A stretch of DNA of 46,906 nucleotides, taken from positions 1 through 46,906 of the forward strand of contig QWPV01000014.1 in NCBI GenBank assembly GCA_003671055.1, given 5' to 3'. This DNA comes from Planctomycetota bacterium. GTDB lineage: Bacteria; Planctomycetota; Phycisphaerae; Phycisphaerales; SM1A02. The position numbers were made by a program, and so were the translations under genes. The notes below the pieces were generated by a model. That model ran no database searches, was not told where the DNA came from, and saw only the letters and a list, made by a program, of their open reading frames with translations. Shown here one piece after another: positions 3,520-32,372 of the stretch (position 1 is the first letter of the stretch; each line of letters begins with the position of its first letter).

Positions 3520-6500
3520 GTGCACTCAGCTTCTGGCGGCGCATCCGCAGCAAAACCAGCACCCGCTCGACTCGCTCGCGCGGAGGGAGCGGTGTTTCTT
3601 GATGCGTACGAAGCGATTCTCAAGGGTGTGCTTGAGTCGCAAGTCCCTGTGAGTGTTGTCGCTGCGCCGCGTCGAGCGCCCTTTGAACGATTGCAGCGCG
3701 TTGCGAATGAGCCAGAGCATGCGCGCGTGCTTGCCCGTCATCAAGTTGAACTGCTCGTCGGTGGCGATGCGGCGCGCGCGATTTCACTCGCGTGTGCATG
3801 CGTTCGCGGTGGACGCAGCGCGGTTGCGCTTGTGCCCAATGATGAACTTGTGCGAGGCGCTGATGCAGTGCTGCGTGCGAGTGAGAGTTTCGTGAATCCA
3901 GAAGCTGGTCTCGCAGTGCTGTTTGAAGATGATCCGATTCGAGTTCCTGGATGCTGCCCTCGCCGCATCGCACTCGGCGCGGGTCTTCCGACGATTGAAC
4001 CAACCGATCTCTCTTCGCTTCGCAGCAGCATCGAATGGGCATTGCGACTTTCACGCGCCGCAGGAAAGCCAGTCGCGGTCATCATGCATCGCGCGCTGTT
4101 GCAAAGCGCGGACACGATCGAAGCGCGGCCCAACCGCGTGCCAGGAAGCGTTGATGAGTTGATTCTTTCGCGCAGGCAACGGCATGGACCTCGCGCAGGT
4201 GAGGCACTCGATCTTGTTCGCATGGCGCGACGACTTGAGGTCGATCAACTCAGCGCGTTGCCGAGCCCTGGCGAGCGCGAGTTTGTGGGCTTCCTCACGG
4301 TGGGTCCGTGTGACCGCGCGTTGATGCATCTCTTGGATGAGTTCGGACTCGCTGGGCGTGTTCCTGTGTTGCGCCTCGGCATGATCAGTCCCGTCGATGA
4401 CTCGATTCTCACGCGATTTCTCGATCGTGTGCAGCACGCCGTCGTACTCGAGCCGCGTCCGGGCAGCGTGGTCGCGAACGTGATTGAAGTTGCTGAAGTG
4501 ATTCGTCGCCGCGGACATCGCACGGCGAAACTTTGGTGGACAGACATGCCGCCGCTTGAAGACGGCGAAGTGCTTGATCTTCGTCCGGGCGATTCCATCC
4601 ATCCATCCTTGTTGGTGCGAAAGATTCTGCATCTCTTGCATCAAGCACGCCCGAATGCGCAGATCGGACTCAGGCTCGCATCGCAGCGAGGCATGCTTGA
4701 GTCGATCAAACTGCCGATACGCGCGCCCGAGGGCGGCGGCGCAGAAACAATCATTCGAGAGCAGTTTGCAGCACTCGATCAAGAACTACGCACCGATTCT
4801 GTGTCGCACGATGCGGATGAAATCCACACCGTGCTCGCGCTTGATGAACTCCCCGCGCCTGGCGCAGCAGCGCGCACAGTGCTCTGCGAGTTATGGAAGC
4901 GCGCGCGATTTATTGAGGAGGGCGCGGCATCAATCTTGCAAGCGGCGCGTGATCCTGCGCCTCGCATCATCGCGGTGCTTGACTTCATTCCTGGCACCGA
5001 TCCAGATCTTGAACGACTCGCGAGCGCAGCCGTTCCAGCAAATGCAGCGGACCGCGTCATCATCGAGCGTGTGAGCTTGCATGATCCCGCGGCGGTGCTT
5101 GATCGACTGCGCACGGCTGCATATCGCAGCGGCGTTTCCGTGTTGTTCTTCCACGGTGTCGATGCGCGCGGCGGAGAGTCGACAGTGGAAGCGGATCGAC
5201 TTGGCTATCCACCGCAGCAACGACTTGTCTGGCCAGCAGACCTCGCGTGTGAATTGCGCCCACAACTTGCGCCGCATCGCATCGAGAACGGGTTGGAGCG
5301 GGGCGCAACGCCGATCCAAGGGGAGTTCACGAAGAGCGATGCCCCGCGTGTGCCGGGCGTCGTTCGACTCACGATGCAAACGCTGCTTGAGCAAGTGGAA
5401 GTCACGCGAAGCAAGGCGCCGTGGTCAGCGGTTGCACGACTTGGCGGACGACTTCCAACAACGCGACCGCTGCACGCGGAGCAAGGCATTTGGCGCGCGC
5501 ATTTAGCGGGCATTCGTGCGATCGGTGAATCAGGCGTCGCAGACATCCTCGCGGATGCTGGTCGCGCGATGGGATATCGCGTGGAGATTGGATGGGATCG
5601 ATCGCTCGTTGGACTCGGTCGCATGGCGTGGGCGCAAGTGACCTTTACGAAACTCCGCGTTGCTGATGCGCGCTCGCCTTGTGCGGGCATCATTCCCTAC
5701 GGCGAAGCAGATCTCGTGCTCGGTGTGGATGCAGTGGAAACGCTCCGTGCACTCGGACCGGATCCACTGCTGCGAGTTGCGGATGCGCAACGCACTGCAA
5801 TCGTCGCAAACGACGGCGCGCTTGAAGATCAACTCGATCAGGAGTCCATTCGTCGTTGCGCGCTGTTGTTCAACGCCGCACAAATTTCCTGCGTGGGAAC
5901 GCGACGAGTCGTTGCGGATCTTGCAAGTCGCGCGCGCAACGAATTGCTCTCGGAACGACTGCTCGATGTCGCACTTCTCGGGCTCGCGTTCCAGCGCGGC
6001 TTCATCCCCGTGACGATCGAGGCGATTGAGAGTGCAATGCACGCATTCGAAGCGCGCGGATTTGGCCGTAGTTTCGAGGCATTCTGCTTCGGTCGAAGCC
6101 TCGCGGAAGACACCACGACCGCGCGACGCATCACGGAAGAACGCGAAAGCGTGAACGGCGTCATCAGTCGACTGACGTTCGAACTCGTGCGCGAACGATT
6201 CGGCGGTCGTCGCCGCGCGAAACGATTCCGTCAACACGCCACCGAACTCGTGAGGCGGCTCAACGCAACGCGCGCGGGTGCGCTTGACGAAGCAACTGTG
6301 CGCCTCGCCGTCACCGCGTTGCATCGCACATTAGTGTGGGGCGGTTCGCGCGCGCTCTTCCAATACGAAGAGTTACTCGGCGCGCTCATCGAGGCAGATC
6401 CAGAAGGGCGACTCGCGTGCGCTGCAGCAGAGCCACTCGCTGAGGCGATGCTCCCGCGCGACATTTTCTACGTGCTCTCGATGACGACGAGTCTCGAACA

Positions 6501-6870
6501 GCGTCGTCGCATTCGTGAACGGCTCGTCGTGCGCGGCAGTAATGGCGACAAGATGGAACGGCGCTACCTCAATCGCATCGACCTCGCGATCGCAACACGT
6601 CGCTATCGCCTCGACTTCAGATCCAACGATTGGCCCGCAGAAATCGTGCGTGTGCTGCGGCCACTTATCCCGTGGACATTGCGCGGCGACTCACGAGACC
6701 GAGCAATCCGCGCCTGGGCCATCGACTTCGCACGCCGAGTCACCGCAAACTTCAAAGCCGATCCACGACTCTGGCTCGCGCGCATGGAGCAGTTCGCCGC
6801 AATCTCACGCGACGGCGGCCTCCGCGCAATCGATCCGATCGAACTCCGCATCGCCGTCGAAGGCGTATGA
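3520..6870 (+). CDS. Large indolepyruvate/2-oxoacid ferredoxin oxidoreductase-like protein, apparently without TPP and Fe-S motifs
   Basis: A GTG-start frame of 1116 residues begins 37 bp after the HAD gene. Residues about 30-220 resemble the N-terminal pyrimidine-binding domain of fused indolepyruvate:ferredoxin oxidoreductases. Residues about 450-560 resemble the C-terminal TPP domain: RIIAVLDF sits where family members have a VVAVIGDS-type TPP motif, and SGVSVLFFHGV matches the closing strand. Residues about 665-850 match the gamma domain (GRMAWAQVTF, GEADLVLGVDAVETL). The last 260 residues are helical and unassigned. No GDG/GDS-N thiamine motif and no CxxCxxC ferredoxin cluster are visible, so oxidoreductase activity is doubtful. 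It could be a repurposed relative with a structural or binding role. Homology is recognised by eye and subdomain limits are approximate. Confidence 0.7.
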   Translation: MHSASGGASAAKPAPARLARAEGAVFLDAYEAILKGVLESQVPVSVVAAPRRAPFERLQRVANEPEHARVLARHQVELLVGGDAARAISLACACVRGGRSAVALVPNDELVRGADAVLRASESFVNPEAGLAVLFEDDPIRVPGCCPRRIALGAGLPTIEPTDLSSLRSSIEWALRLSRAAGKPVAVIMHRALLQSADTIEARPNRVPGSVDELILSRRQRHGPRAGEALDLVRMARRLEVDQLSALPSPGEREFVGFLTVGPCDRALMHLLDEFGLAGRVPVLRLGMISPVDDSILTRFLDRVQHAVVLEPRPGSVVANVIEVAEVIRRRGHRTAKLWWTDMPPLEDGEVLDLRPGDSIHPSLLVRKILHLLHQARPNAQIGLRLASQRGMLESIKLPIRAPEGGGAETIIREQFAALDQELRTDSVSHDADEIHTVLALDELPAPGAAARTVLCELWKRARFIEEGAASILQAARDPAPRIIAVLDFIPGTDPDLERLASAAVPANAADRVIIERVSLHDPAAVLDRLRTAAYRSGVSVLFFHGVDARGGESTVEADRLGYPPQQRLVWPADLACELRPQLAPHRIENGLERGATPIQGEFTKSDAPRVPGVVRLTMQTLLEQVEVTRSKAPWSAVARLGGRLPTTRPLHAEQGIWRAHLAGIRAIGESGVADILADAGRAMGYRVEIGWDRSLVGLGRMAWAQVTFTKLRVADARSPCAGIIPYGEADLVLGVDAVETLRALGPDPLLRVADAQRTAIVANDGALEDQLDQESIRRCALLFNAAQISCVGTRRVVADLASRARNELLSERLLDVALLGLAFQRGFIPVTIEAIESAMHAFEARGFGRSFEAFCFGRSLAEDTTTARRITEERESVNGVISRLTFELVRERFGGRRRAKRFRQHATELVRRLNATRAGALDEATVRLAVTALHRTLVWGGSRALFQYEELLGALIEADPEGRLACAAAEPLAEAMLPRDIFYVLSMTTSLEQRRRIRERLVVRGSNGDKMERRYLNRIDLAIATRRYRLDFRSNDWPAEIVRVLRPLIPWTLRGDSRDRAIRAWAIDFARRVTANFKADPRLWLARMEQFAAISRDGGLRAIDPIELRIAVEGV

Positions 6871-6900
6871 ACACAATTCAGGCAAAGCGGATTCACCCCA

Positions 6901-7174
6901 CGCGCTCAACCACGCGATTCAGCCGAATGCCGGCTGTGCCGGCGAGGCGTACGAAAGAGAGCGAAACCGCGCGGCGTCCATGCAGTTCAACGAACATATG
7001 GCAACGCGCGGTCAGTCGCGAACGCTAAGACACGCGCTCAACCACGCGATTCAGCCGAATGCCGGCTGTGCCGGCGAGGCGTACGAAAGAGAGCGAAACC
7101 GCGCGGCGTCCATGCAGTTCAACGAACATATGGCAACGCGCGGTCAGTCGCGAACGCTAAAACACGCGCTCAAC
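6901..7174. repeat. 132-bp tandem repeat, two copies plus a short third start, between convergent genes
   Basis: The segment starting CGCGCTCAAC recurs at 6901, 7033 and 7165, giving a 132-bp period. Copies 1 and 2 are nearly identical and copy 3 is only its first ten bases. These ten bases overlap the rlmN stop codon. Each full copy holds the hairpin GCCGGC-TGT-GCCGGC (6929-6943 and 7061-7075). The period is 44 codons, so one plus-strand frame stays open, but this is a side effect of period length. The 303-bp gap 6871-7173 holds only this repeat. Read on the rlmN sense strand, the core (AGCGTTCGC, GACCGCGCG, CTTTCGTA, CTCGCCGGCA) also occurs at 15703-15767, so it appears to be a dispersed family. 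Confidence 0.9.
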
Positions 7175-8280
7175 TACGCACGCACACTTTCGTGTCGTAA
7201 CTGTCCGCACGCGGCGGCGATGTCTCGACCGCGACTGGCGCGGATGTGAACATTCACGCCCTTTTCCCGGAGTAACTCTTGGAAGCGTTGCACGATGCCG
7301 TCTTCAGGGCGATTGAAGGGGACGCCCTTCACTTCGTTGTAGCGGATGAGATTCACATTCGCGCGCAGTGAGTTAGCGAGTGCGGCAAGTTCGAGTGCGT
7401 GCTCGCGGCGATCGTTGAATCCTCCGAGGAGAATGTATTCAAGTGTGACTTCGCGGCCGGTCTTCTTGAACCATTCGTTGCAAGCGTCGAGTAGTTCGGC
7501 GATTGTCGAATATTCAGCCCACGGAATGATCTTGCGACGCAGCTCATCGTTGGGCGCGTGCAGCGACAGCGCGAGCGTGACGGGAATTTCGAAGGTGCAG
7601 AGTTTGCGAATCGCTGCGGGAAGTCCAACGGTGGACACCGTAATCTTGCGCGCGCCGACACCCATGCCCCACGGCGCGTTGATCGTGCGAATCGCTTCCG
7701 TGACTTCGTTGAAGTTCGCGAGCGGTTCACCCATGCCCATGAAGACGACATTCGAAATGCGATCCACGCCATCAAGTTGCGCGAGTCGCCAAACTTGCTC
7801 GACGATCCTTCCAGCATTGAGATTTCCATCAAGACCACCGATGCCACTGGCGCAGAACGCGCAACCAACAGGGCAGCCGACTTGGCTCGACACGCATGCA
7901 GTTTTGCGATCTTCAGTAGGAATCATCACCGTTTCGGTTTGCTTCGACGGTTCGTCGCCCATGAGGCGGATGCCCGTGCCGCTCTGTGCTGCGCGCTCAG
8001 CACGCTCCGCAGCAGTCGGCCAACCGATGAGCAGCTTCTGTGTGTCGTCACTCGCGAGTTGATGCCGAATGACTTCACCATCAAGCACGGTGAATGCCTC
8101 GACGAGTTTCGCGCGCGCGAGCTTTGAGAGATTCGTCATCTGCTCGAAATCGGAAATACCTTTCGAATAAACCCAGTCGAGCACTTGTGGTGCGGCGAAC
8201 TTCGGAAGGCCGAGCGCTTCGAAGCGTTGTTCGAGCGTGGTCGGATTGAAGTTGAAGATGGAGTCGAGAGCAGTGGGCAT
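7174..8280 (-). CDS. rlmN: Dual-specificity 23S rRNA m2A2503/tRNA m2A37 methyltransferase RlmN
   Basis: The 368-residue protein is a radical SAM methyltransferase. The cluster-binding cysteines are in GCPVGCAFC (Cys136, Cys140, Cys143; CxxxCxxC). Other RlmN features are MGMGEPL, VSTVGLP, ALSLHAPND and RASRGRDIAAACGQL. Cys358 in the last motif is the expected methyl-carrying cysteine. It methylates C2 of adenosine 2503 in 23S rRNA and A37 in some tRNAs. The N-terminal helical domain (LEQRFEALGLPKFAAPQVLDW) is intact, and the length is normal for the family. It lies 14 bp downstream of ispH on the same strand, suggesting an ispH-rlmN operon. Its 3' end abuts the tandem repeat. Confidence 0.96.
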   Translation of the reverse strand: MPTALDSIFNFNPTTLEQRFEALGLPKFAAPQVLDWVYSKGISDFEQMTNLSKLARAKLVEAFTVLDGEVIRHQLASDDTQKLLIGWPTAAERAERAAQSGTGIRLMGDEPSKQTETVMIPTEDRKTACVSSQVGCPVGCAFCASGIGGLDGNLNAGRIVEQVWRLAQLDGVDRISNVVFMGMGEPLANFNEVTEAIRTINAPWGMGVGARKITVSTVGLPAAIRKLCTFEIPVTLALSLHAPNDELRRKIIPWAEYSTIAELLDACNEWFKKTGREVTLEYILLGGFNDRREHALELAALANSLRANVNLIRYNEVKGVPFNRPEDGIVQRFQELLREKGVNVHIRASRGRDIAAACGQLRHESVRA

Positions 8281-14706: not shown

Positions 14707-15699
14707 ATGCTTCTCGGCGTCATGGCAGCACTGTTTAACGGTCGCAAATTCGAAGATGTGCTCGAGTATTGTCGAGAAATCGGGCTTGAGGCGATAGAAC
14801 TGCCCGTTGGCGGTTACCCGGGCAAAGGGTTTTTCGATCCCGCAAAGGTGCTCGCGAGCAAGAAGGAACAGGATCGAATCAAGGGAATGTTGAAGGATGC
14901 GGGTCTCGTGCTGTCAGGACTTGCAGTGCATGGAAATCCTGTGCACCCCGACAAAAAGCTCGCGGGCACACATCACCGCGACTTCGCGAACGCCATCAAA
15001 CTCGCACCTGCATTGGGCACAGACATCGTCATCACGTTCAGTGGATGCCCCGGAGGTTCGAAGACCGACAAGCAGCCGAACTGGGTGACATGTGCGTGGC
15101 CCAACGAGTATCGCGATGTGCTCGACTATCAATGGAACAAAGTGCTCATTCCATATTGGAGTGCGCAAGCACGACTCGCAAGTGCGCACGGTGTGAGAGT
15201 CGCATGGGAAGCGCATCCTGGTTTCTGTGTCTACAACCCCGACACCATCATTCGATTGAGCGAAGCATCGATGAAAGCATCAGGATTGAAAGGCAAGCCA
15301 GTCCTCGGCGCGAATCTCGATCCAAGTCATTTCTTCTGGCAGGGCATCGATCCAGTGGAAGCAGCACGAGTGCTCGGTGAAGCAGGACTCCTCTACTACG
15401 TGCACGCGAAAGACACCGAACTCGCAACACACGAAGGCAAAGTCAACGGCTACCTCGACGCGCGCCCTTACGGCGACCTCAACAAACGCGCCTGGACCTT
15501 CCGAACCTGCGGCTACGGTCACGGCCACGAATTCTGGAAACCCTTTGTCTCCATGCTCCGCCGCCACGGCTACGACCACGTCCTCTCGATCGAACACGAA
15601 GACCCACTCATGAGCGTGGAAGAAGGCCTCGAACGCGCAGTGTTCTTCCTGCAAGAAGCAATCATCAACGAACAACCCGGCAAGCCTTGGTGGCATTAA
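14707..15699 (+). CDS. Sugar phosphate isomerase/epimerase (xylose isomerase-like TIM barrel)
   Basis: The 330-residue protein starts at the ATG at 14707. It belongs to the AP endonuclease 2/xylose isomerase-like TIM barrel superfamily. It begins with LLGVMAALFNGRKFEDVLEY and has EIGLEAIELPVGGYPG, VRVAWEAHPGF, ANLDPSHFFWQGIDP, YVHAKDTEL and LSIEHEDP. The Glu in WEAHPG, the Asp/His of LDPSHF, the His of VHAKD and the Glu of IEHED are the usual metal and catalytic positions. Related proteins are common in planctomycetes and act on sugars or inositols, but the substrate is not deducible. It is divergent from the CX4CH gene and convergent with the glutamate dehydrogenase gene. Confidence 0.88.
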   Translation: MLLGVMAALFNGRKFEDVLEYCREIGLEAIELPVGGYPGKGFFDPAKVLASKKEQDRIKGMLKDAGLVLSGLAVHGNPVHPDKKLAGTHHRDFANAIKLAPALGTDIVITFSGCPGGSKTDKQPNWVTCAWPNEYRDVLDYQWNKVLIPYWSAQARLASAHGVRVAWEAHPGFCVYNPDTIIRLSEASMKASGLKGKPVLGANLDPSHFFWQGIDPVEAARVLGEAGLLYYVHAKDTELATHEGKVNGYLDARPYGDLNKRAWTFRTCGYGHGHEFWKPFVSMLRRHGYDHVLSIEHEDPLMSVEEGLERAVFFLQEAIINEQPGKPWWH

Positions 15700-15702
15700 T
15701 TT

Positions 15703-15767
15703 GAGCGTTCGCTGATTGACCGCGCGCGATTTGGCTCACTTTCGTATGACTCGCCGGCATAGCCGCC
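15703..15767. repeat. Dispersed 3'-end repeat related to the 132-bp tandem repeat, with hairpin
   Basis: On the plus strand this segment reads GAGCGTTCGC, TGATTGACCGCGCG, TTTGGCTCACTTTCGTATG and CTCGCCGGCATAGCCG. It aligns with the reverse complement of each 132-bp unit at 6901-7164, apart from about 36 bp between GACCGCGCG and CGGTTT that is present only in the tandem copies. The hairpin CGGC-ATA-GCCG at 15755-15765 matches the stronger hairpin of the tandem units. It lies between convergent genes 4 bp after the isomerase stop and 9 bp before the GDH stop, so a bidirectional terminator role is possible. Confidence 0.75.
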
Positions 15768-15776
15768 TTGGCCAGA

Positions 15777-18731
15777 TCAACTAATCCCTGCGCGGGCGCC
15801 GCCTCTTTCGAGGAGTTGGGCGACGCGTTCTTTGTCGGCGAGGGTGGAGGCTCTTACCTTCGCGACGACTTCTCGGTTTTGGAGGTCGCTCTTCATGTAG
15901 CGGAGGGCGAGGTCGGCCACTTCATTGGCTGCAAGACCGTCGAAGAAGTCCATGCCTTCGCGGTAGGCGATGGAGCTTGCGAGTCGGTTCGCGATGATCC
16001 AGGTTTGGTAGGACTGTGGCAGTGATCTCCACACGCGATCGCCAGCGAATTCGAAGAGGATGCGGGGGAGGTGATCGCGGATCATTTGGTTCGCGAGTTC
16101 GCGATCTGCCGCGCTCCACTTCGGAACGCCCGCCGCGATTGCTGAAGCGGTTGTGTTGATGACCTTCGACAACTCCACTGAAATCTTCGGGAGCGAGAGG
16201 CTTGGGTACGCCTTTGCAGAGCGCATCAAGAACTCGCCTTCAACACGTGCAAGTTCGCGCAGTCGTTCGATCACTTGCGTGACGTACGTGTCCTTGATGG
16301 CGAGGAATTCCTCATCGGAGAGAATCATGCACGCGCTAATCTCGTAACTCGAGCAGATGACGCCGCACTTGTTTGCGGACGAATCCTTGATGATTGTTGC
16401 ACCACGCGCGGAGAGTTCTTCGCGTGCTCCAGGGGTGAGGAAGAGATTCGCGCCTTCGCTGATGACGGTCGCACTCGGCTTCCCATCAGCAGTAAGAAAC
16501 TCTTGCCAGTTGCCTTCGTGAATGGTGGCGGGGCGACCGCCGCCTGGAATGAAGGCATCGGTCACGAGGCGATTGTGCAGCGAGTTGCGAATACGCGCGC
16601 CGTCTGGTGCATCCACAGGTGTGATGCGACCCTTTGGCGACAACTTCTTCACATCAAATTTTGCGATCGGAAGCGCATCATGGAAGAGCCGAATCAGTTC
16701 CGCGTGATCGAGTCCTTCGGGGTCCTCACCTGAACCAGAACCATCGGCAACACCGACAATCACAGCGTTTTTGCCGTAATCGCGCTCGAGGATGTTCATC
16801 ATGTTTCCCGCAACATCGCCATCGGGTCCGCCCGTGATCTTCACGGTGAAGCGCTGCTTCTTCGGATCAATGCCGCGTGCTTTGAGCGCGATTTCGAGGA
16901 AGACATTCACGCCTTCGCTCGTCACGCCGTACACCTTGTGATTGATGCCCGCGCCAGGCTTCGAACTCATGAATGCGGTGGGCATGACATAGCCGCGTTG
17001 ACGCGCGCGTTCCACGATCCACTCGATGTGCGCTGGAGTGATGTTCTCATCCGGTCCGAGGTAGATCAGCTCTTCCTTGCCGAAGCGATCGACGACGAGC
17101 GCTTTCACTTCGGGGGTTTGCACGATGAGATCGAGAATCGAATCGACGAACGCTTTCACGCAGCGATCGATGGTCGCGTGGGGCTCGAGCAGAATCGCTG
17201 CTTTCGAGCCGCCTTCTGGAATGTCCTTGTTTTTGAGCTGTTGCGCCCACGAGAGTCCGTAGACCTCGTCAAACAAGCGTTCGCTCTCGCGTGCGTGCTG
17301 CGCAAGGCTCGACGTACGAATGACACGCAATCCGCCGCGAGCGATGTCTTGGAAGCGATTGTGGAATCCATCAAACTCGCGGCCATGCACGAAGAACGTC
17401 GCGTAGGGCTTTTCTGGACGCTCGCTGTTGGCGAGGTAGCTCGGATCGATGCGCAAGCAAAGTGCAAATCGATTCGGAAGGAAGAAGTTCGTGCGATACG
17501 TCGCATCCACACCCTCGAGCATTTTCGTCAATGCGAGCCGATGATTCTCACTCGGCTGGCGCACGATGTCGCATTCAATCGTTGCGCGCGCGATGGCGTA
17601 TGCAGCGTCGGAGAGCGGCTTGGATGGTTCGAAGCGCGCGATGAAGAGCCGGACAATGTCGAGTGATACGCCGAGCGATTCTTCCGCGAAGCCGAGGATG
17701 CGCTCGCGTGTCCACAAGAATCGATTCTGTGGACACAGCACTTGTTGCGCGAGATGGCAGAGTCCAACGAGCACTTCCGCTTCGCTGGTTGCAACTGTGG
17801 GATGCCGATCACTCAGCGCAAGCGCACGAATATCGATCCACTTGATGCGTCGAAGATCGCGCAGAATCGTCGCCCAGAGCGGCGAATCTTTCTGAATTGC
17901 GCAACCATCAGGGCCACCAACGACGAAGCCGACGAAGGTGACCGAATCGCCCTTGCCGTCGCGAACAATGTCAAGATACGCACGGTGAATCGAGACTCTG
18001 TGACGCGCAAGGATGCGCGCAGATCGCTCAAGCATCGTTCGCGTTCGTGCGTTTTCAACCACGATCACGATGCGACTCATCGTCGGATGCGACTCGGGTT
18101 CCAACTCCACGACGGTGCCATCGCTACCAGACACAATATTGAAAAGATTCCAATGCGCAGCAACACGCAGCGGCGTGCAGGTCAACACATACTCTGCGGA
18201 ACAACCAGCGAAGTAGTTCGAGATCTGATCAGGTGTCCAATCGAGTTTGTGTTCCTTCGCGTATCGAATCGTCTCGGTAAGCTTCGCAGACTGCCGTTCA
18301 TCGCGACTATCAAATGGCTCCGGTTCGCCGAACACAAACGTATCGAGCACAAGGCTCCCATCAAGCGACGAATGAATCTTTGCAGCGCGCAGTGATTGAT
18401 CGAGTGGCAGTTGCGCGACCAGTTCCGCAAGCACGCCCGGTTGGTTCGTACTCTTGATGAGTGTGAGTTGTCGGCCGTCTTCACTCTTCAGGGTGAGATC
18501 GATCGGTCGACCTGATGCCTTCGCCGCGATGATCGCACGCAAATGCGCGAGTTGGTTCGCGCGATCCGTGTCTTGGAAATACATCGGCGGCATCTGAGAA
18601 ATGAACCACGGTCCGACGCTCTCTGCTGTCGTGCGAAAACTCGAAACGAGTTCTTCGACGATGGCCGATGCATCCATTGCGTGTGTTGCGCTGCGCGTTC
18701 CGAGTTCACTGTTCATATGCTGTGGAGCCAC
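15777..18731 (-). CDS. NAD-dependent glutamate dehydrogenase, large (about 115 kDa) type
   Basis: The 984-residue length fits the 115-kDa class of NAD-GDH, shorter than the 180-kDa GdhB class. It deaminates L-glutamate to 2-oxoglutarate and ammonium with NAD. The substrate-binding and catalytic region is visible near residues 470-520: IARGGLRVIRTS, AQQLKNKDIPEGGSKAAIL. Further on, ITGGPDGDVAGNMMN is the nucleotide-binding glycine motif and VIVGVADGSGSGEDPEGLD follows. The catalytic Lys of KNKDIPEGG is retained. The N-terminal 400 residues are the regulatory-type extension found in these large enzymes; an ACT-like segment around residues 220-270 (IVVVENARTRTMLERSARIL) is plausible. The first ATG is at 18731, with an in-frame alternative at residue 6. 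It is divergent from ribF across 44 bp. Confidence 0.9.
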   Translation of the reverse strand: MAPQHMNSELGTRSATHAMDASAIVEELVSSFRTTAESVGPWFISQMPPMYFQDTDRANQLAHLRAIIAAKASGRPIDLTLKSEDGRQLTLIKSTNQPGVLAELVAQLPLDQSLRAAKIHSSLDGSLVLDTFVFGEPEPFDSRDERQSAKLTETIRYAKEHKLDWTPDQISNYFAGCSAEYVLTCTPLRVAAHWNLFNIVSGSDGTVVELEPESHPTMSRIVIVVENARTRTMLERSARILARHRVSIHRAYLDIVRDGKGDSVTFVGFVVGGPDGCAIQKDSPLWATILRDLRRIKWIDIRALALSDRHPTVATSEAEVLVGLCHLAQQVLCPQNRFLWTRERILGFAEESLGVSLDIVRLFIARFEPSKPLSDAAYAIARATIECDIVRQPSENHRLALTKMLEGVDATYRTNFFLPNRFALCLRIDPSYLANSERPEKPYATFFVHGREFDGFHNRFQDIARGGLRVIRTSSLAQHARESERLFDEVYGLSWAQQLKNKDIPEGGSKAAILLEPHATIDRCVKAFVDSILDLIVQTPEVKALVVDRFGKEELIYLGPDENITPAHIEWIVERARQRGYVMPTAFMSSKPGAGINHKVYGVTSEGVNVFLEIALKARGIDPKKQRFTVKITGGPDGDVAGNMMNILERDYGKNAVIVGVADGSGSGEDPEGLDHAELIRLFHDALPIAKFDVKKLSPKGRITPVDAPDGARIRNSLHNRLVTDAFIPGGGRPATIHEGNWQEFLTADGKPSATVISEGANLFLTPGAREELSARGATIIKDSSANKCGVICSSYEISACMILSDEEFLAIKDTYVTQVIERLRELARVEGEFLMRSAKAYPSLSLPKISVELSKVINTTASAIAAGVPKWSAADRELANQMIRDHLPRILFEFAGDRVWRSLPQSYQTWIIANRLASSIAYREGMDFFDGLAANEVADLALRYMKSDLQNREVVAKVRASTLADKERVAQLLERGGARAGIS

Positions 18732-31189: not shown

Positions 31190-32372
31190 GCGTTGTGCTT
31201 CGCCTCTGTAAGCCACGGCATGAGCGCACGGACTCGCGCACTCGCTGCTTCGATTGGATGCGCGCGCGCGTCTGCTCGCCAACACTCGAACTCTCGATGA
31301 CCATCGTTGTAATCGCGCATGAATCGCGCGGCGAACGCGCCGGATCGCACATCAGTGAGCAGCGCCGACATTCGCGCGCGAACACCGTCATCGATGAGCG
31401 TTCGAGCTGCGACGAATGCGCCGAATTCCGCGGTATCCGAAATCGCGCGTCGCATGCCATCAGGTCCACGCGCGTACAGCAGATCGGTGACCTGCTTGAG
31501 TTCATGGCAGCATTCGATGTACGCAACTTCCGGTGGATAGCCCGCAGCAATCGCAATTTCATATGCCGCCTCGATGAGCCCAATCACACCGCCGCGTAGA
31601 GCAGATCGGTGACCTGCTTGAGTTCATGGCAGCATTCGATGTACGCAACTTCCGGTGGATAGCCCGCAGCAATCGCAATTTCATATGCCGCCTCGATGAG
31701 CCCAATCACACCGCCGCACAGCACCGCTTGTTCGCCGAACAAATCGCTCTCCGCTTCAGCAGCGAAGGTGGTCTCGAGCAGTCCACTCCGCGTGCAGCCA
31801 ATCCCAGCGCCCCATGCGGTCGCGAGCGAACGCGCCGTTTGCGCCTTGTTTTCTCGATGCACCGCCATGAGTGCAGGAATGCCTTGACCCATGAGGAAGC
31901 GCTCTCGCACCGTTGTGCCAGGACCTTTGGGAGCAAGCAGCACGATGCCGAGATCCGCGGAAGCTGAAGGCTCGATGAACCCAAATCGAATCGCGAATCC
32001 GTGCACGAATCCAACAACTGTCCCAGGACGCAACGATGACTCGATCCATCGAACCCAGGCCGCGGGTTGTGCTTGATCAGGAAGTGCAACGATCACGAGA
32101 TCAGCTCGCGCGCAAGCAAGCGAGTAATCCATCGATTCAAATCCATCCGCTGCAGCGCGCGCGCGTGCTGTGCCGCCATGCTCAAGCGGTCGACCGCCGA
32201 CGATCACATTGAGCCTTGAATCACGGAGATTCTGCGCATGTGCGCGCCCTTGATTCCCATATCCAAGTACCGCAATGCACTTGTCAACAAGCGGCGCGAT
32301 GAGCACCGTCGAAGTCAATGTGTCACTCTCTCGAAGCACTGGGAGTGAGGGCGCGAGCGGAGGCAGATGCAT
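31186..32372 (-). pseudogene. ilvC: Ketol-acid reductoisomerase-like gene disrupted by a 122-bp tandem duplication
   Basis: KARI converts acetolactate or acetohydroxybutyrate to the dihydroxyacids of branched-chain amino acid synthesis. From the ATG at 32372 the frame has IAVLGYGNQGRAHAQNLRDS (Rossmann NADPH motif), LLAPKGPGTTVRERF, QGIPALMAVH and SDLFGEQAVLCGG. It stops early at 31584 just after VTDLLYA. The rest (GPDGMRRAISDTAEFGAFV, ending HPIEAASARVRALMPWL) is in a second frame. The shift is exactly where a 122-bp unit is repeated. Removing one unit leaves 1065 bp, 354 codons, in one frame and a normal class I KARI length. uppP is coupled downstream. As given, the product would lack the last part of the C-terminal knotted domain. 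Confidence 0.85.
31474..31717. repeat. 122-bp tandem duplication inside the ilvC-like gene
   Basis: Units are 31474-31595 and 31596-31717. They are identical except for C versus G at 31477/31599. The unit begins GTACAGCAGATCGG (GTAG in the second copy) and ends CACACCGCCGC. The length is not a multiple of three, so it shifts the ilvC frame. High identity suggests either a very recent event or an assembly artefact. Confidence 0.95.

Follow-up and report, generated by a model that had tools for sequence, protein, structure and literature searches.

In the window, by which we mean the whole stretch of 46,906 nucleotides that was analysed, a gene for a xylose-isomerase-like TIM barrel protein on the plus strand converges on a NAD-glutamate dehydrogenase-like gene on the minus strand, and the gap between their 3' ends (15699 and 15777) is filled by a single short repeat. 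The repeat directly adjoins the TAA stop codon of the upstream gene (15697-15699; distance 0 nt), and its far end meets the 3' end of the opposing gene. A homologous, intact pair of copies lies at 7.0 kb in another convergent gap (plus-strand gene end at 6870, minus-strand gene end at 7174), in sense behind an RlmN-like gene and 11 nt past its stop codon. The original prediction, that a core repeat occurs at two loci, each time between convergent genes and in sense behind one of them, is borne out in all of these points. Genes were called with our own fifth-order codon-phase Markov model trained on these loci, on which the gene ends rest, and tRNAs with ARAGORN. The features concerned are the following, with bit scores from a covariance model built from intact own-genome copies (R1):

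3520..6870, plus strand, convergent neighbour of the 7.0-kb copies (gene call; no Pfam match)
6878..6912, minus strand, truncated third unit, a hairpin-2/tail remnant only, of the second own-genome subfamily
6919..7030, minus strand, intact copy 2, in tandem with copy 1 at a 132-bp period (122.9 bits)
7051..7162, minus strand, intact copy 1 (125.8 bits; fold z about -2)
7174..8280, minus strand, RlmN-like radical SAM gene (gene call; Pfam PF21016/PF04055)
14707..15699, plus strand, xylose-isomerase-like TIM barrel gene upstream of the focal copy (gene call; Pfam PF01261)
15700..15776, plus strand, focal decayed copy (50.2 bits)
15777..18716, minus strand, NAD-glutamate dehydrogenase-like gene, convergent neighbour of the focal copy (gene call; Pfam PF05088/PF00208)

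The focal copy matches R1 with an E value of 7.8e-12 in the window and 4.7e-10 in the whole genome, and the next best match in the window after the known copies scores 13 bits, which is chance level. Its 5' motif, TTTGAGCGTTCGC, is intact, hairpin 1 has collapsed and hairpin 2 is kept in part. Because 35 consensus positions, comprising the hairpin-1 loop and part of both arms, are absent from it in the R1 alignment, the focal copy arose by deletion from the full form that is seen at 7 kb. The length difference that had been described as a 36-bp insert in the other copy is therefore real, but its polarity is reversed. Slippage involving the CGCG tracts in the two arms of hairpin 1 is the probable cause. 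In comparison with shuffled sequences the focal copy folds no better than chance (z +0.8); the intact copies fold better than their shuffles (z -2 to -4). Intact copy 1 comprises the 5' motif, hairpin 1 with a 31-nt loop, the TCGCTCTCTTT motif and hairpin 2, the units of the 132-bp tandem at 6899-7162 are 99% identical, and the truncated third unit is recognised by a pattern match at 6878-6896 with a chance expectation of 0.04. Elsewhere in the window, at 31471-31714, a 122-bp tandem duplication (99% identical) lies inside a minus-strand coding region, whose reading frame is broken since 122 is not divisible by 3; it is either an assembly artefact or a recent frameshifting duplication.

An intact unit is about 112 nt long and consists of the 5' motif TTTGAGCGnTCGCGACT, hairpin 1, a TCGCTCnCTTT motif and hairpin 2, the consensus from an alignment of 19 own-genome copies being TTTGAGCGnTCGCGACTGACCGCGCG-31 nt-CGCGCGGTTTCGCTCnCTnTnGTACGGC-hairpin 2-TTCGCCTGA. 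According to RNAalifold, hairpin 1 has 13 pairs with a CT bulge and hairpin 2 has 8 pairs. Hairpin 1 combines conserved arm bases and the two-base bulge with an apical loop whose length is fixed and whose sequence varies: in the long subfamilies of the own genome (G000) and of the two same-genus genomes G016 and G053 the loop is constant at 30/31 nt, with a mean column conservation of about 0.6 as compared to 0.83-0.99 in the arms. On the RNAalifold structure 98.5% of cells are paired and 20 change on both sides, whereas shuffles average 5.0 such cells; none of 500 shuffles has as many, and sliding the partners leaves 0-1. This covariation lies mostly in hairpin 2. A G-U wobble is invariant in the sense strand. 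Across lineages the hairpin-1 sequences differ yet still pair (A2 counts: 85.2% paired, 23 double changes versus 13.5 shuffled). A shorter own-genome subfamily is 87 nt long, has another hairpin 1 (TGATGATTT...AAATCATCA) and often occurs in tandem, and the family as a whole features tandem mosaics and lineage-specific subfamilies. The arms of hairpin 1 are inverted around a fixed loop, but hairpin 2 is unrelated to it, which makes the unit asymmetric and not an inverted REP doublet. The hairpin-1 loops of the G016 type often end in GTAG.

In the 2.85-Mb own genome a BLAST search with the 7-kb copy returned about 40 significant matches and R1 returned 79 at E values up to 1, 76 of them below about 0.02; about 26 of the R1 matches are full A-type copies and about 50 are mostly shorter, chiefly of the 87-nt subfamily. 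A genome-wide search, as the original prediction had called for, thus yields about 75 matches and refutes the case of just two loci. In the same-genus genomes G016 and G053 R1 finds 43 and 13 matches, and it finds weaker ones in G045, G029 and G023. A search of GTDB genomes with a pattern of the two conserved motifs retrieved more than 100 stretches, nearly all of the named ones from planctomycete MAGs (Planctomycetaceae pond MAGs, Planctomycetia F1-140-MAGs141/142, Phycisphaera sp. RI_241), apart from one bin with the label Limnohabitans and others with 'uncultured bacterium'. With a general covariance model spanning lineages (R2), at least 10 of 301 genomes of the order, in two genera, are positive; R2 counts are lower bounds, since the same-genus genome G262 is R2-negative yet carries a further divergent subfamily. 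For the same reason G262, considered as a copy-free congener, was dropped from that role. Viral contigs and plasmids gave no element match, Rfam 15 gave none at the gathering threshold in the window and, at E 0.5 over eight element loci, nothing except one tRNA, and our literature search found no published description of this repeat. Many copies lie at contig ends. Two other repeats were seen beside the family: a longer one of a few hundred bases with CCATCACCAGAGGTGATGCCACACG and GAAGGCGGAGCGCAGCGAAGCCT, often after element arrays in pond MAGs (L201, L212, L298), and a module, CTACCGACGGAGTCGGTGAGGGGA, that accompanies the divergent subfamily in G262 (L320, L321, L322).

The copies are placed with a marked preference relative to genes. 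A sense gene lies upstream of 44 of 54 own clusters, 26 of 33 in G016 and 37 of 46 in six other MAGs, or 107 of 133 clusters when pooled (p 7e-13), which gives the enrichment at gene 3' ends that the prediction of a dispersed 3'-end element had implied and, together with the copy number, supports it. The element is present in 28 of 40 sampled convergent gaps versus 21 of 130 other gaps (p 4e-10), and convergent gaps make up 28 of 49 occupied own gaps versus 12 of 121 unoccupied ones, the background gaps being drawn from the neighbourhoods of copies. One third of the own clusters (18 of 54) begin between -6 and +5 bp of the stop-codon end, where random insertion into intergenic DNA on a random strand would place 1.6% (p 2e-19). 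In 13 own copies element positions 3-5, mostly TGA, are themselves the stop codon of the gene; a stop in the next frame at element position 19 is used in only two copies across two genomes. Several copies lie 2-80 nt past tRNA genes, and only one of 56 own clusters overlaps a CDS.

Occupancy differs between relatives. We followed twelve upstream genes of the own genome into G016 and G053: 10 of the 12 G016 orthologs had no element behind the stop codon, and none was found behind the traced G053 orthologs, one G053 contig ending too early to judge. The focal gap itself holds a copy of G016's own short subfamily directly after the stop codon in G016, none in G053 and a third-subfamily copy on the other strand in G262. 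G000 and G016 have about seven occupied gaps in common; as only about one would be expected by our own estimate if sites were independent, some sites are either hot spots or old and functional. Two pond MAGs with about 95% identity in the aligned loci differ by exactly one unit at one gene end, the difference falling between two copies of the 5' motif (1.9 of 6.3 kb compared). It fits either an insertion or recombination between the 5' motifs, and the comparison established neither an exact insertion boundary nor a target-site duplication.

We consider the focal feature to be a degraded copy from a family of REP/BIME/REPIN-like mobile elements that are miniature, palindromic and non-autonomous, with a probability of roughly 0.68. 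This assignment is built on the copy number, the structure, the tandem mosaics, the lineage-specific subfamilies, the sense placement at gene 3' ends and the gain and loss described above; transposition itself we infer. Units might spread by a nuclease acting on the folded single strand, and the mobilising enzyme is probably one other than RAYT. New units would be tolerated at or just past stop codons, since their own 5' end supplies a stop triplet. Each unit would then be transcribed as a double hairpin in the 3' UTR, which may delay the release of ribosomes or shield the 3' ends of mRNAs. Ribosomes in E. coli are stalled by REPs lying within 15 nt of a stop codon (PMC12306157), and stalling would by analogy be the likeliest effect on the upstream gene. 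A more specific version, which we put forward tentatively, is that of a sense-directed stop-codon inserter that brings its own stop, whose hairpins are swapped between lineages under retention of two recognition motifs, and which is moved by an enzyme that is neither a RAYT nor a reverse transcriptase.

Other readings start from the transcript. That selection maintains the element chiefly as a functional structure of the 3' UTR, slowing ribosome release or shielding the mRNA 3' end, with mobility secondary or past, is possible, if doubtful: the sense bias and stop-codon anchoring, the strong pair conservation with the wobble kept in the sense strand, the gaps shared between G000 and G016 and the precedent of the E. 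coli REPs (PMC12306157) all agree with it, but most own sites tested are empty in congeners, sites occupied in both species, such as the focal one, hold the local subfamily and no shared ortholog, and in the focal copy hairpin 1 is gone and folding is no better than in its shuffles. The original prediction had also offered a terminator family, and a preference for convergent gaps, a position after tRNA genes and stop codons and GC-rich hairpins are what bidirectional or intrinsic transcription terminators would show. We nonetheless regard this as unlikely, and intrinsic termination as unsupported, because there is no U-tract: the longest T run is at most 3 nt around the end of hairpin 1 in 68 of 69 copies scored and after the element in 113 of 117. 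Moreover, a pattern scan reports no terminator-like site at the window copies, and some copies (e.g. C90, C63) are followed by an independent, classical-looking hairpin terminator.

The anatomy would also suit a true REPIN moved by the RAYT (TnpA-REP) transposase of the same genomes, and a search with Pfam PF01797 in 14 genomes, combined with reading of the flanks, did find four RAYT-like Y1 genes in the own genome and 1-4 in each second-genus genome searched. However, the same search found no Y1 gene in G016 (99% complete, 43 copies) or G053 (100% complete, 13 copies), no convincing copy lies in the retrieved flanks of any Y1 gene inspected (4 own, about 10 elsewhere), with none within 1.4 kb of the own four, and no GTAG or CGTC tag marks the element ends, GTAG being confined to the hairpin-1 loop in some copies of the G016 type. 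Mobilisation by RAYT at the present day is thereby largely refuted and this reading improbable. Of the original proposal of a REP-like family, the copy number, hairpin covariation and sense placement stand, while the tag and the link to RAYT do not. The four Y1 proteins of the own genome (L036-L039) are unusually long, at about 390-420 aa, and share a common architecture. A retroelement was rejected as a candidate, as no RVT_1 was found in the copy-bearing genomes G000, G016, G053, G045, G191 and G206. Finally, the 99% identity of the tandem at 6899-7162 and the many copies at contig ends could suggest an assembly artefact of the metagenome bin, which has almost no probability left: copies of distinct sequence occur at dozens of loci in independent assemblies from several projects, so that an artefact is already refuted for the family and doubt attaches only to exactly how many units some of the tandems contain.

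REP-like repeats are common, and how they avoid harm and are mobilised is mostly understood for GTAG/RAYT systems. The family described here, with its strand bias, its tight anchoring at stop codons and no RAYT in two of the genomes that carry it, lends itself to telling targeting and selection apart and may lead to a further enzyme that processes hairpins. It also matters for annotation, as convergent gaps in compact planctomycete genomes are commonly filled by the repeat, and for metagenome assembly, as contigs often break at copies.

The element agrees with the general description of REPs and REPINs as high-copy, mainly intergenic, hairpin-forming palindromes. With the REPINs of Pseudomonas fluorescens it shares conserved ends, a spacer that varies more but keeps its length, compensatory changes and a dispersal mostly outside genes with tandem clusters; in REPINs, too, length and hairpin capacity are the critical features of the spacer and compensatory changes are frequent (PMC3116915). 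Unlike REPINs, it is not a doublet of inverted REPs but an asymmetric unit with two different hairpins, it is strongly sense-biased at the 3' ends of genes, and RAYT is absent from two of the genomes that carry it. The REP/BIME elements of E. coli and the GTAG- or CGTC-tagged palindromes resemble it as small intergenic palindromes in mosaic arrays, with a bulge in the stem and some of them within 15 nt of stop codons, and CGTC REPs likewise occur without a dedicated transposase (PMC3733652, PMC8266576). In contrast to these, the element measures 87-112 nt versus 20-40 nt and often supplies the stop codon, and its 5' ends read TTTGAGCG and variants, with no GTAG/CGTC tag. Integron attC sites are imperfect hairpins of variable sequence with bulged bases, lying directly behind the stop codon in sense. 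The bulged, variable hairpin of the element in the same position offers a lead in that direction; unlike attC, however, the element has by eye no RYYYAAC/GTTRRRY core sites, and its copies are scattered behind individual genes of the chromosome instead of forming cassette arrays. Rickettsial RPEs and bacterial MITEs are short, non-autonomous palindromic repeats as well (PMC3733652, PMC10969869); in the element we recognised no terminal inverted repeats or target duplications, and its copies lie at gene ends and not inside genes. While REP-like repeats themselves are already known, what is new here is the anchoring at stop codons in a family with no link to RAYT.
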